Below, in pieces: positions 39,998 through 62,016 of a stretch of DNA of 64,000 nt; positions within the stretch are counted from its first letter, which is position 1, and each line of letters starts with the position of its first letter. Under the pieces are notes generated by a model. That model was not told the DNA's origin and did no database searches. It saw only the letters and a list, made by a program, of their open reading frames with translations. Origin of the DNA: Pseudomonadota bacterium (GTDB lineage Bacteria > Pseudomonadota > Alphaproteobacteria > Acetobacterales > Acetobacteraceae). The position numbers and the translations under genes are program-made. The stretch is from NCBI GenBank assembly GCA_021801255.1, contig JAJYYH010000009.1, forward strand, positions 62,001 through 126,000, given 5' to 3'.

Positions 39998-44893
<4,896 letters not shown>

Positions 44894-56403: not shown

Positions 56404-56637
56404 TCAGCCGAGCGGGCAGAGGGCGGGCTGATTGTCGGTATGCGTGACCAGCATGATGCGGCCGGCGTGTGGAGAGGAAATCATCATCAGATCGCCGGGG
56501 CTGAGGAGGTCGGCGGCGTCGCAGAAGAAGCCCGGGGCCACGATGTCCTCGATCGGGTCGGCGCCGGCCTTGTAGTGCCAGAGGGTAAAACCCTGGGCGT
56601 AGGACAGCACCGAGAGATTGCGGGTGGCGAGGGCCAT
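56404..56637 (-). CDS. Small hypothetical protein (77 aa), possibly phage-derived
   Basis: ATG with AAGGAAG about 8 nt upstream. The sequence LSVLSYAQGFTLWHYKAG with AADLLSPGDLMMIS resembles small proteins that I recall from phage-like loci of alphaproteobacteria. No signal or membrane segment. There is no room for a separate promoter between it and the terminator at 56672, so it may be expressed by read-through of the small RNA transcript. Function unknown. Confidence 0.6.
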   Translation of the reverse strand: MALATRNLSVLSYAQGFTLWHYKAGADPIEDIVAPGFFCDAADLLSPGDLMMISSPHAGRIMLVTHTDNQPALCPLG

Positions 56638-56671: not shown

Positions 56672-56707
56672 AAAAAAAGGGCCGCACCGGGGGGTGGTGC
56701 GGCCCTT
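56672..56707 (-). terminator. Intrinsic terminator
   Basis: A 12-bp GC-rich stem, AAGGGCCGCACC pairing with GGTGCGGCCCTT (56707-56696 with 56688-56677), loop ACCCCCC, followed on the minus strand by seven T. One of the strongest terminators in the window. Confidence 0.9.
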
Positions 56708-56755
56708 CAGGGTTGGGAAGAAGGAGGAATCAACGGGCGTATTTCACCCGTTGAT
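56672..56755 (-). ncRNA. Candidate small RNA, or attenuated leader of the 77-aa gene
   Basis: Predicted start at 56755, 7 nt after the -10, and predicted end in the T run at 56672, about 84 nt. Its 5' hairpin is a perfect 9-bp stem (AUCAACGGG with CCCGUUGAU, loop of 9 nt, 56755-56729). A single-stranded pyrimidine linker (UCCUCCUUCUUCCC) could pair with Shine-Dalgarno sequences, as known for several alphaproteobacterial small RNAs. The terminator hairpin closes the molecule. Not matched to a named family; inferred from signals only. Confidence 0.6.
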
Positions 56756-56756
56756 A

Positions 56757-56790
56757 GAACTCATATAGAACAGAGGATGCTCAGCGTCAA
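56757..56790 (-). promoter_or_regulatory. Sigma70-like promoter overlapping an alphaproteobacterial LexA-type box
   Basis: Minus strand -35 TTGACG (56790-56785), 17-bp spacer, and -10 TATATG (56767-56762). The box GTTC-TATATGA-GTTC (56771-56757) has the alphaproteobacterial SOS-box spacing of exactly seven and covers the -10. A repressor bound here would block initiation. Confidence 0.7.
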
Positions 56791-56835
56791 GACTATTTTC
56801 CTAAACTTTCTGCCATCTCCCCTCCATGTCCGCGC

Positions 56836-57228
56836 TCAGCCGACGATTCCCTTGACGCGGAGCGGCCACTCCAACCGATCCAACGCTTCCCGCCACAACC
56901 GCCAGTCGCAGCGCTCGAGAGCAAAGCCGGGGTTGGGCGCGCATTGCCGCTCGCCCCAGAGCCGCAGAATGCGGGCATGAACGAGGTCGATGCGGCGGCG
57001 GCGATAGAGGGTATCGAGGCATTTCACCACGTCGTCGGGCTCGCACGGCCGGGCCACGCGGCCGAGGCCGGCGCGCAGGCGGGCGCCGTCGCGCCGCGCG
57101 ATCAGCGCCGCCATGGTCCAAAACCAAGCTTCCTCGGCGCTGACGAAGGGGAGGGTGGGGCGGGTCATCATGCTTGTGTCGGGGCGGGCGGAGGGGGTCG
57201 GACAGCGGCGGGCGGCGGGGCTGGACAT
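56836..57228 (-). CDS. Hypothetical protein (130 aa)
   Basis: ATG at 57228 with AAGGAG 7 nt upstream; internal ATGs at 57171 and 57168 lack such a site, although the recognisable sequence begins there (TRPTLPFVSAEEAWFWTM). Charged, helical, Trp- and Arg-rich; segments include CEPDDVVKCLDTLYRRRRID and ARILRLWGERQ. No domain recognised. I suspect a taxon-restricted protein. The upstream LexA-type box at 57275-57289 suggests damage-linked control. It is divergent from the S24 repressor gene. Confidence 0.65.
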   Translation of the reverse strand: MSSPAARRCPTPSARPDTSMMTRPTLPFVSAEEAWFWTMAALIARRDGARLRAGLGRVARPCEPDDVVKCLDTLYRRRRIDLVHARILRLWGERQCAPNPGFALERCDWRLWREALDRLEWPLRVKGIVG

Positions 57229-57274: not shown

Positions 57275-57289
57275 GAACAAAGCAAGAAC
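57275..57289 (-). promoter_or_regulatory. Second alphaproteobacterial LexA-type box
   Basis: GAAC-AAAGCAA-GAAC on the plus strand, i.e. GTTC-N7-GTTC on the minus strand, 46 bp upstream of the 130-aa gene. No convincing -35/-10 pair could be placed around it. Confidence 0.55.
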
Positions 57290-57430
57290 TATCTGGGATA
57301 GAAAAACCATGAATCGGCACACGTGGCAAGCAGATTCAGGCACTTTTTCCTATTCCCCTCGGACTCAATTCCTTGCACACTGGCCTTCACCTCGTCTCGC
57401 AGCTCAGCCCCTTTCCCGAGAGCCATGGCC

Positions 57431-58069
57431 ATGAAACATGAAGACATCTGGCGGGCGCTTGACACGCTCGCCGCCGAACAAGGTCTTTCGGCCTCCGGCT
57501 TGGCCCGCCGCGCCGGGCTCGACCCGACCACGTTCAACCACTCCAAGCGCCGCATGCCCGACGGTCGCGCCCGCTGGCCGAGCACCGAGAGCCTCGCCAA
57601 GGTGCTGATCTCGACCGGCGCCAGCCTCGATGACTTCACCGCCCTGGTCACCGGCGCGCGCGCCCTGCCTTCCCGCCCCCCCTCCCGGCGCATCCCCCTT
57701 ATCGGCCTCGCCCAGGCCGGCAGCGATGGCTTCTTCGATGACGGCGGCTATCCGGTGGGCGGCGGCTGGGACGAGGTGAGCCTCCCCGAGGTCGCCGATC
57801 CGCACGCCTATGCGCTGGAAATCAGTGGCGATTCCATGGAACCGGTGTTTCGCGATGGCGATATGGTCATCATCTCACCCAACGCCCCGGTGCGCCGCGG
57901 CGATCGGGTGGTGGCGCGCACCGGGCGCGGCGAGGTGATGGCAAAACAACTCGTCCGCCGCTCCGCCCGCCGCGTCGAACTGAAAAGTCTGAACCCGGCC
58001 CACCCTGACTACATCTTCGAACTCAGCGAAATCGCCTGGATCCACCGCATCATCTGGGCGAGCCAGTAG
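57431..58069 (+). CDS. XRE-type HTH transcriptional regulator with S24 (LexA/CI-like) peptidase domain
   Basis: 212 residues from the ATG at 57431; the ATG at 57425 is an alternative. Residues 5-70 form an XRE/Cro-like helix-turn-helix (AEQGLSASGLARRAGLDPTTFN). Peptidase S24: cleavage site Ala96-Gly97 (GLAQAGSDGF), nucleophile Ser135 in SGDSMEP, and Lys172 in MAKQLV. Architecture of phage CI repressors and of RecA-stimulated self-cleaving regulators, not of LexA, whose N-terminus is winged-helix. It may sense DNA damage and control its neighbours, but that is inference. Confidence 0.87.
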   Translation: MKHEDIWRALDTLAAEQGLSASGLARRAGLDPTTFNHSKRRMPDGRARWPSTESLAKVLISTGASLDDFTALVTGARALPSRPPSRRIPLIGLAQAGSDGFFDDGGYPVGGGWDEVSLPEVADPHAYALEISGDSMEPVFRDGDMVIISPNAPVRRGDRVVARTGRGEVMAKQLVRRSARRVELKSLNPAHPDYIFELSEIAWIHRIIWASQ

Positions 58070-60922: not shown

Positions 60923-62016
60923 GCAGCCCGCTTGGCCCGCGTCCGCGCCCGGAAATTCTCACCATCGCACCCTATATCGGCGGCGAATCGCACCTTGCCG
61001 GCGTCAACCGCGTTCTCAAGCTGTCCTCGAACGAGGGCGCCTTCGGCGCTCCGCCCGGCGCGCAAGCGGCCTATGCGCGGCTCGCCCGGGAGATCTTCCG
61101 CTATCCTGACGGCGCGGCGGAGGCGCTGCGCCGGGCCATCGGGGCACGTTTCGGGCTCGATCCGGCGCGCATCGTCTGCGGCAACGGCTCGGACGATCTG
61201 ATCTACCAACTGGCGCTTTCCTACGGCGGGCCGGGCACCGAACTCATCATGACGAGGCATGGGTTTTCCATGTACGCGATCGCCGGGGCCTATGCCGGCT
61301 CGCGGGTCGTCAAGGTTGCCGAACACCATCTCACCGCCGATGTCGATGCCATCCTGGCGGCGGTGTCGCCGGCAACCCGCCTGGTCTGTCTCGCCAATCC
61401 CAACAACCCGACGGGCAGCCTACTCGGCGCGGCCGAGATCGCGCGGCTGCGCCGCGGCTTGCCCGCGGATGTCTTGCTCGTGCTCGATGCGGCGTATGCC
61501 GAATATGTTACGCGCGCCGATTACGAACCCGGCGTGACATTCGTCGATGCCGGCGATAATGTTGTGATGACCCGGACATTTTCGAAAATCTTTGGCCTGG
61601 GCGGCCTGCGTCTCGGCTGGGCTTATGCGCCGCCTGGGGTGATCGATGTGATGAACCGTGTGCGCAACCCGTTCAATACCAACGCCGCGGCGCAGGAAGC
61701 GGCGATCGCGGCGCTCAACGAGCCCGGCTGGGTGGAAAAAAGCCGTGCCCATAACAGCGCATGGCGCGACAGGCTGGGCGCGATGCTCACGGAGGCGGGA
61801 ATAAAAATCTGGCCGAGCGAGGGCAATTTCATCCTCGCTGATTTTACCACCCGGGAGCGCGCCGATGGCGCCAACGCGCATCTTCGAGCGAGCGGCATCC
61901 TGGTTCGCCCGATGGGCGGCTACGATCTGCCGCATTGCCTGCGCATCACCATCGGCACCGCGGCGGAATGCGAGGCGGTGGCGGCTTCTCTGACCGATTT
62001 CATGCGTCATGGCTGA
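60919..62016 (+). CDS. hisC: Histidinol-phosphate aminotransferase
   Basis: 365 residues. Fold type I PLP enzyme: [48 protein letters not shown], and PLP lysine in [17 protein letters not shown]. Such HisC proteins often also transaminate aromatic keto acids, which fits the neighbours. Overlaps chorismate mutase by ATGA and tyrA by 8 bp. Confidence 0.92.

Follow-up and report, generated by a model that had tools for sequence, protein, structure and literature searches.

A segment of an Acetobacteraceae genome encodes a short, structured RNA of about 84 nt, a member of an RNA family that is real and lacks an entry in Rfam. The reading that we favor, with roughly even confidence, is that this RNA would combine two roles, acting both as the promoter-proximal leader of a cassette that is phage-derived and under repressor control and as a released anti-Shine-Dalgarno (anti-SD) small RNA (sRNA). 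It would probably be made under a repressor of the DNA-damage type, block read-through into the output genes and be able to mask ribosome binding sites. The DNA that was analyzed, referred to as the window, is a stretch of 64,000 nucleotides (positions 62,001 to 126,000 of contig JAJYYH010000009.1, assembly GCA_021801255.1) of a 3.2-Mb Acetobacteraceae genome, named G000 here. The element itself is composed of the following parts, with coordinates given in the window:

56785..56790, minus strand: promoter -35 element, TTGACG (read directly; TTGAC is kept across genera).
56762..56767, minus strand: promoter -10 element, TATATG (read directly; the position is kept as TAAATA/TATATG/TAGAAC-like hexamers).
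56672..56755, minus strand: small RNA or leader, about 84 nt (covariance models R1 and R2; whole-genome match 1.1e-17).
56729..56755, minus strand: 5' hairpin, 11 bp with a 5-nt loop (column conservation and covariation).
56709..56728, minus strand: unpaired, pyrimidine-rich linker with the anti-SD sequence UCCUCCUU at 56728-56721 (conservation of UCCUCC).
56672..56708, minus strand: intrinsic terminator, 13-bp stem and T7 (terminator scan, folding and covariation).

On direct reading, the two promoter hexamers are separated by a 17-bp spacer, the predicted RNA start (56755) is the first base of the 5' hairpin, the terminator stem spans 56708-56676 with T7 at 56678-56672, and the ATG of a 77-codon gene is found at 56637, i.e., 34 nt beyond the terminator T-run. 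An initial annotation of this DNA had described a promoter, a 5' hairpin, a UCCUCC linker and a terminator, all of which are present; the hairpin, given there as 9 bp, is slightly longer (11 bp, including one G-U pair), and the terminator does end in T7 but has a stem of 13 bp instead of 12 bp. The RNA folds with -43.8 kcal/mol, compared to -20.7 ± 2.9 kcal/mol for shuffled sequences (z = -7.9), and its terminator ranks best among the 8 identified within 6 kb. An E. coli-type promoter was not called at the RNA promoter in the same 6-kb scan because the -10 element ends in G; the promoter fits CTTGAC-N17-CTATAT.

The hairpin, linker and terminator are almost identical in five other species of the window genus, and an alignment of these congeners shows that they also keep the promoter and the upstream stretch TTTAGGAAAATAGTCTTGACG. 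Other genera display the same layout upstream of the 77-aa gene, with stems that are altered yet complementary. A covariance model built from ten sequences matches 91 of 297 Acetobacteraceae genomes, representing 41 of 91 genera. At most of the 80 named genome loci the RNA is found on the same strand and at a fixed distance after a gene encoding a 130-aa protein, as it is in the 65 of 80 IMG/VR proviruses, selected by this 130-aa gene, in which the RNA is present. Named relatives of the 130-aa gene also place the window genome in the Acetobacteraceae. A match in genome G087 is a lone terminator and not the RNA. Spread beyond the Acetobacteraceae was considered and rejected: matches in a class-wide search are weak, the five that were read are bare terminators at unrelated places, and a search of the GTDB order revealed no further family with the RNA.

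A covariance search with compensatory changes in both stems had been proposed earlier as a check, and covariation is strong. Alignment A8 contains 152 double-change cells compared to 47 in shuffles and alignment A11 contains 364 compared to 115 in shuffles and 42-90 in slid controls, where both alignments are fitted to the covariance model, which favors the structure. The structure is argued to be real because the slid controls are low and every terminator pair changes freely, with both partners altered in each of the 15 pairs of the model. While the terminator sequence thus varies freely, the 5' hairpin retains its sequence (CAaCGGGCGAnnUGCGYCCGnnG from column conservation) and is the most conserved part of the RNA, beyond the anti-SD linker alone. 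The linker, for which an anti-SD function had been proposed, is also conserved; UCCUCC is found in 71 of 104 distinct linkers, compared to 8.7 expected from composition, an excess that is inflated by relatedness. The initial annotation considered the register of promoter, hairpin, linker and terminator to be beyond chance, which is borne out by their retention in the five congeneric species, in agreement with the family-wide model and the covariation. Judged by sequence conservation, the element appears to be a genuine, independent small RNA that has a promoter and a terminator to itself. The same data bear on the view that the element is merely an insulator, i.e., a promoter remnant and a terminator that halts upstream transcription, with no regulatory RNA. 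The strong terminator with its freely varying sequence would suit such a device, but the promoter, operator, 5' hairpin and UCCUCC are kept across about 40 genera, which makes it barely credible.

The RNA resides in a cassette with the following genes in the window:

57431..58069, plus strand: S24 (LexA/CI-type) repressor gene with a Peptidase_S24 domain (PF00717, E=2.6e-23; phrog_4 transcriptional repressor, 6.8e-32).
56836..57228, minus strand: 130-aa gene, the constant neighbor of the RNA and a putative antiterminator or activator (beside 30 of the 30 strongest RNA matches).
56404..56637, minus strand: 77-aa gene, the output gene in the window genus, phage-related (phrog_18004, E=8.7e-8).

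The constant neighbors of the RNA are the divergent S24 repressor gene and the 130-aa gene, and the order of the cassette is S24 repressor, 130-aa gene, RNA, followed by either the 77-aa gene or a T7-like virion gene cluster. The S24 gene was considered as the host LexA and rejected (34 bits compared to a cut-off of 111; the host lexA is located on contig C55). The 77-aa gene follows the RNA in the window genus and in many others, and is found in 123 of 200 family genomes; a homologue shares the fecal phage contig MT838907.1 with a related portal (49% identical). In Roseomonas-type genera a gene of roughly 145 aa is inserted before the RNA, which is followed by the virion cluster, composed of a small MGGLF protein, a head-tail connector (PF12236), a scaffold-like protein, the major head protein, tail proteins, an internal virion protein and a fibre. 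The connector of this cluster is present in 40 of 150 genomes, none of them in the window genus. Because the same flanking host genes (lysS-like and mprF-like) are found at about 25 Roseomonas-type loci and because the genes are under purifying selection (dN/dS of about 0.1 for both S24 and the 130-aa gene, with values of 0.1-0.6 in the case of the 77-aa gene), the cassette is considered an old, maintained element rather than a decaying prophage. No description of a cassette of this kind from Roseomonas or the Acetobacteraceae was found in the open-access literature.

The virion cluster is a candidate for a domesticated particle or a gene-transfer-agent-like element. It is compact and T7-like at L098 and L100 (1-10000) and at the IMG/VR loci L130-L209, the latter being proviruses of 12-13 kb, and at these loci the S24 repressor is present and no replication genes were seen. 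A PF03237 terminase was not found in three whole family genomes searched, two of which are known to carry the cluster. At G115:C44:11397-12089 the head-tail connector gene is cut to its two ends, with residues 3-125 and 370-476 adjacent, and therefore the cluster is decaying there. A second, weaker model match is seen near 3550 in L141, L142 and L143, about 2.5 kb downstream and within the virion cluster, and is probably just a terminator between structural genes.

The link to the cassette also bears on an alternative in which the RNA is purely a trans-acting anti-SD sRNA, similar to ar14/NfeR1, that is merely lodged in the cassette and has a terminator without any role for the next gene. Such a function would be consistent with the conserved UCCUCC, the strong promoter, a full-length Rfam similarity to ar14 that falls below threshold (33.1 bits, E 3.6e-5), further similarities to mmgR and CcsR1, and the fact that anti-SD sRNAs are typical of Alphaproteobacteria (PMC10746234, PMC7143759). 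However, all 30 of the 30 strongest whole-genome matches adjoin the 130-aa gene inside the cassette and none is free-standing, the next gene relies on read-through, and conservation is highest in the 5' hairpin and not just in the anti-SD linker; this alternative therefore appears unlikely.

The distance from the terminator to the next start codon is 29-72 nt before virion genes (55 measured loci) and 12-34 nt before the 77-aa gene. There is no room for a promoter in this interval, and the next gene must therefore depend on read-through. The initial annotation had offered as an alternative that the RNA is a leader for the 77-codon gene, which turns out to be half the answer, as the RNA is found directly before the next gene family-wide. 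The remaining half concerns the linker, which was considered as a cis-acting sequester of the ribosome site of the next gene. In a swap test, pairing of the linker with its own downstream ribosome site is not stronger than with the ribosome sites of other loci, nor stronger than that of shuffled linkers; because the linker does not prefer its own site, a cis effect on translation is unsupported, and this lack of preference points to action in trans.

The order repressor, Q-type gene, promoter, short leader, terminator and late genes is that of the lambda Q/pR'/tR' region. Here, the position of Q is occupied by the 130-aa gene, whose product is basic (pI 10.6) and is modeled by AF2 as four helices (pLDDT 81). 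Nothing significant was identified for this protein in sequence searches of Pfam, PHROG and PDB, where Pfam and PHROG gave no antiterminator match, and the gene was not found in annotated phages. In a Foldseek search of the PDB, Q21 is found at ranks 1, 3 and 6, with E-values of 2.3-5.5 and TM scores of 0.31-0.35, which are not significant, and the viral library yielded no named Q. For these two reasons an antiterminator role of the 130-aa protein is a suggestion only, one that derives from the gene order and from the pattern of loss. Loci L031, L033, L036 and L037 (L031, L033 and L037 belong to genus g108) are devoid of the 130-aa gene and also of the RNA before the 77-aa gene, which favors the combined leader and sRNA; in genomes of g54 and g21 (L014, L015, L018 and L025) the 130-aa and 77-aa genes are kept and the RNA is absent, which counts against it.

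With this layout, the RNA could also be purely a cis-acting antitermination or attenuation leader in the style of lambda Q or N, with the 130-aa protein as the factor and with no activity in trans. The sequence repressor, 130-aa gene, promoter, short leader, terminator and late genes is what such a leader would require, a second promoter does not fit before the next gene, the conserved hairpin with its 5-nt loop at the transcript start is boxB-like, and the factor would be a basic protein with weak fold matches to Q21. We regard this explanation as rather improbable, because it leaves the conservation of UCCUCC unexplained and because the likeness to Q21 is not significant, is not seen with any entry of the viral library and is not accompanied by an antiterminator match in Pfam or PHROG.

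Two types of control site are found in and around the cassette promoters:

56787..56803, minus strand: operator copy 2, 17 bp, TAGGAAAATAGTCTTGA, upstream of and overlapping the -35 element (motif in 40 of 40 RNA promoters; genome-wide pattern match).
57336..57352, minus strand: operator copy 1, TAGGAAAAAGTGCCTGA, between the S24 and 130-aa genes (promoter-derived matrix; genome-wide pattern match).
57275..57289, minus strand: LexA-type box GTTC-N7-GTTC upstream of the 130-aa gene (exact box conserved in intergenic regions).
56757..56771, minus strand: GTTC-TATATGA-GTTC over the -10 element, a possible species-specific LexA site (not in congeners or other genera).

On the basis of its sequence, the RNA promoter is of the sigma-70 type, with a -35 element that is overlapped by a cassette-specific operator. 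The motif TAGGAAAA-nn-TC(C)TTGAC is found ahead of the RNA in all 40 promoters examined, with one invariant G, whereas the spacer between the -35 and -10 elements is not conserved. A matrix derived from these sites detects the same dyad in the DNA that separates the S24 gene from the 130-aa gene at 29 of 40 loci, with scores higher than the best of 30 shuffles. In the window genome, the pattern TAGGAAAANNNNCNTGA has exactly two matches, operator copies 1 and 2 of the cassette; as these two sites served to define the pattern, the information resides in the absence of others, and the congener genomes are much alike in this count. The S24 repressor of the cassette would be the natural binder of the predicted operator. 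At L014 and L015, the RNA is absent, yet operator-like dyads (TAGGTATAATTTCCT / GAGGAATTTAGTCCT) persist before the 77-aa gene.

The motif GTTC-N7-GTTC is the LexA box of Alphaproteobacteria (PMC3323433). The box at 57275-57289, which is located 0.5 kb upstream of the RNA, is conserved: an exact copy precedes the 130-aa gene (or the 77-aa gene at loci that have lost the former) in 37 of 44 intergenic regions and at 42 of 77 named genome loci, compared to 0.34 expected. An exact box (GTTCTTGTTATGTTC and similar) is also seen between the S24 and 77-aa genes at L031, L033 and L037 (genus g108) and at L036. The initial annotation had instead assigned this role to the box over the -10 element, through which the host LexA would repress the RNA directly. 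This sequence is indeed present, as an exact box in the right place, and the host lexA carries GAACCAATATAGAAC over its own -10. However, an alignment of the five congeners reads GGTTTAAATAGCACTC or similar in this region, without GTTC-N7-GTTC, and the box is found in only 1 of 37 RNA promoters, i.e., that of the window species alone, and in none of 65 IMG/VR promoters. Furthermore, the exact pattern is no more common in the window genome than its reversed control (50 compared to 49). A LexA box at this position as the conserved switch is thereby rejected, and direct repression of the RNA by LexA is very unlikely. The initial annotation had named a lack of conservation of stems, promoter and box in relatives as evidence against the element; stems and promoter are conserved, while the box is not. 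A link of the RNA to DNA damage is plausible through the S24 repressor and the upstream box. Elsewhere in G000, two intergenic GTTC-N7-GTTC boxes are located before a 387-aa gene at L062/L063 (contig C48, near 6690), which by eye resembles a radical SAM protein, and one near a small helix-turn-helix gene at L114 (contig C56, near 600); these may possibly be SOS genes of the host.

In the mechanism that we propose for the combined leader and sRNA, the S24 repressor would bind the operator and hold the RNA promoter down, and damage-triggered self-cleavage of S24 together with release of the 130-aa gene from LexA would turn the locus on. Most transcripts would then end at the terminator to yield the RNA of about 84 nt, the UCCUCC of which could pair with Shine-Dalgarno sequences of other mRNAs. 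The output gene would be produced only upon read-through by the polymerase, perhaps with help from the 130-aa protein, which would serve as an antiterminator at the conserved hairpin or at the promoter. A more specific version, which is tentative and of low probability, is that the phage-derived cassette is kept vertically and is under a double DNA-damage lock (S24 operator and LexA box), where the leader RNA would be the antitermination target of a new family of small antiterminators, i.e., the 130-aa proteins, and also a broad anti-SD sRNA that lowers host translation as particle genes are turned on.

If the double-lock reading is true, host translation would be turned down at the time when particle genes are turned on. 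More generally, the data define a new RNA family without an Rfam entry that is found in about 40 genera, all within a single bacterial family, and is firmly tied to a phage-derived cassette. The RNA would join two ideas known separately, i.e., the sRNA from the leader of a lambdoid late promoter and the anti-SD sRNAs of Alphaproteobacteria. The analysis also provides exact, testable sites (two operators, one LexA-type box and one hairpin) for the silencing and release of domesticated phage genes.

Among known systems, StxS is a trans-acting sRNA that is produced when transcription from a phage late promoter stops at its terminator, and that acts on ribosome sites (PMC7873438). StxS and lambda 6S RNA resemble the RNA described here as short RNAs that start at a phage-type promoter and stop at a terminator immediately ahead of late genes; the family has its own promoter and terminator directly before the virion cluster, and in the window the 77-aa phage-related gene takes the place of that cluster. 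No sequence relation to these RNAs is seen, and the host family, the repressor and the virion genes differ, as does the RNA promoter, which here carries a repressor-type operator. As to an upstream antitermination factor, the 130-aa gene is in place but is no proven Q, its fold matches to Q21 not being significant; lambda Q and Q21 share with the cassette the gene order and the required read-through, but the 130-aa protein is without significant sequence or fold match to them. The alphaproteobacterial LexA regulon is matched by the conserved exact box before the 130-aa gene, but not at the RNA promoter, where the box is not conserved and the conserved operator is a different one.

For ar14/NfeR1 (RF02344), regulation in trans by anti-SD pairing was shown (PMC10746234, PMC7143759). 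This RNA is similar in having a sigma-70 promoter with a conserved upstream stretch, hairpins, an exposed CCUCC-type anti-SD and a terminator (PMC10746234), but ar14 has three hairpins, each with an unpaired CCUCCUCCC and with hypervariable stems, while the RNA here has two hairpins, a first stem that is conserved in sequence and the anti-SD in the linker. In addition, ar14 is free-standing, while the present RNA is tied to the phage cassette. MmgR/suhB (RF00519) and CcsR1 (RF02791) share a pyrimidine-rich anti-SD stretch before the terminator, but their context differs. The scores with these models (33.1 bits compared to a gathering score of 58.8 for ar14 over the full length, 27.7 compared to 41 for MmgR and 20.9 compared to 65.3 for CcsR1) are below the gathering thresholds. 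An Rfam scan, also proposed in the initial annotation, left the RNA unmatched at gathering score both in the window and in five relatives, which argues against membership in a known Rfam family. The sole Rfam match in the window is a TPP riboswitch (43014-43136, minus strand, 58.9 bits), located far from the RNA.
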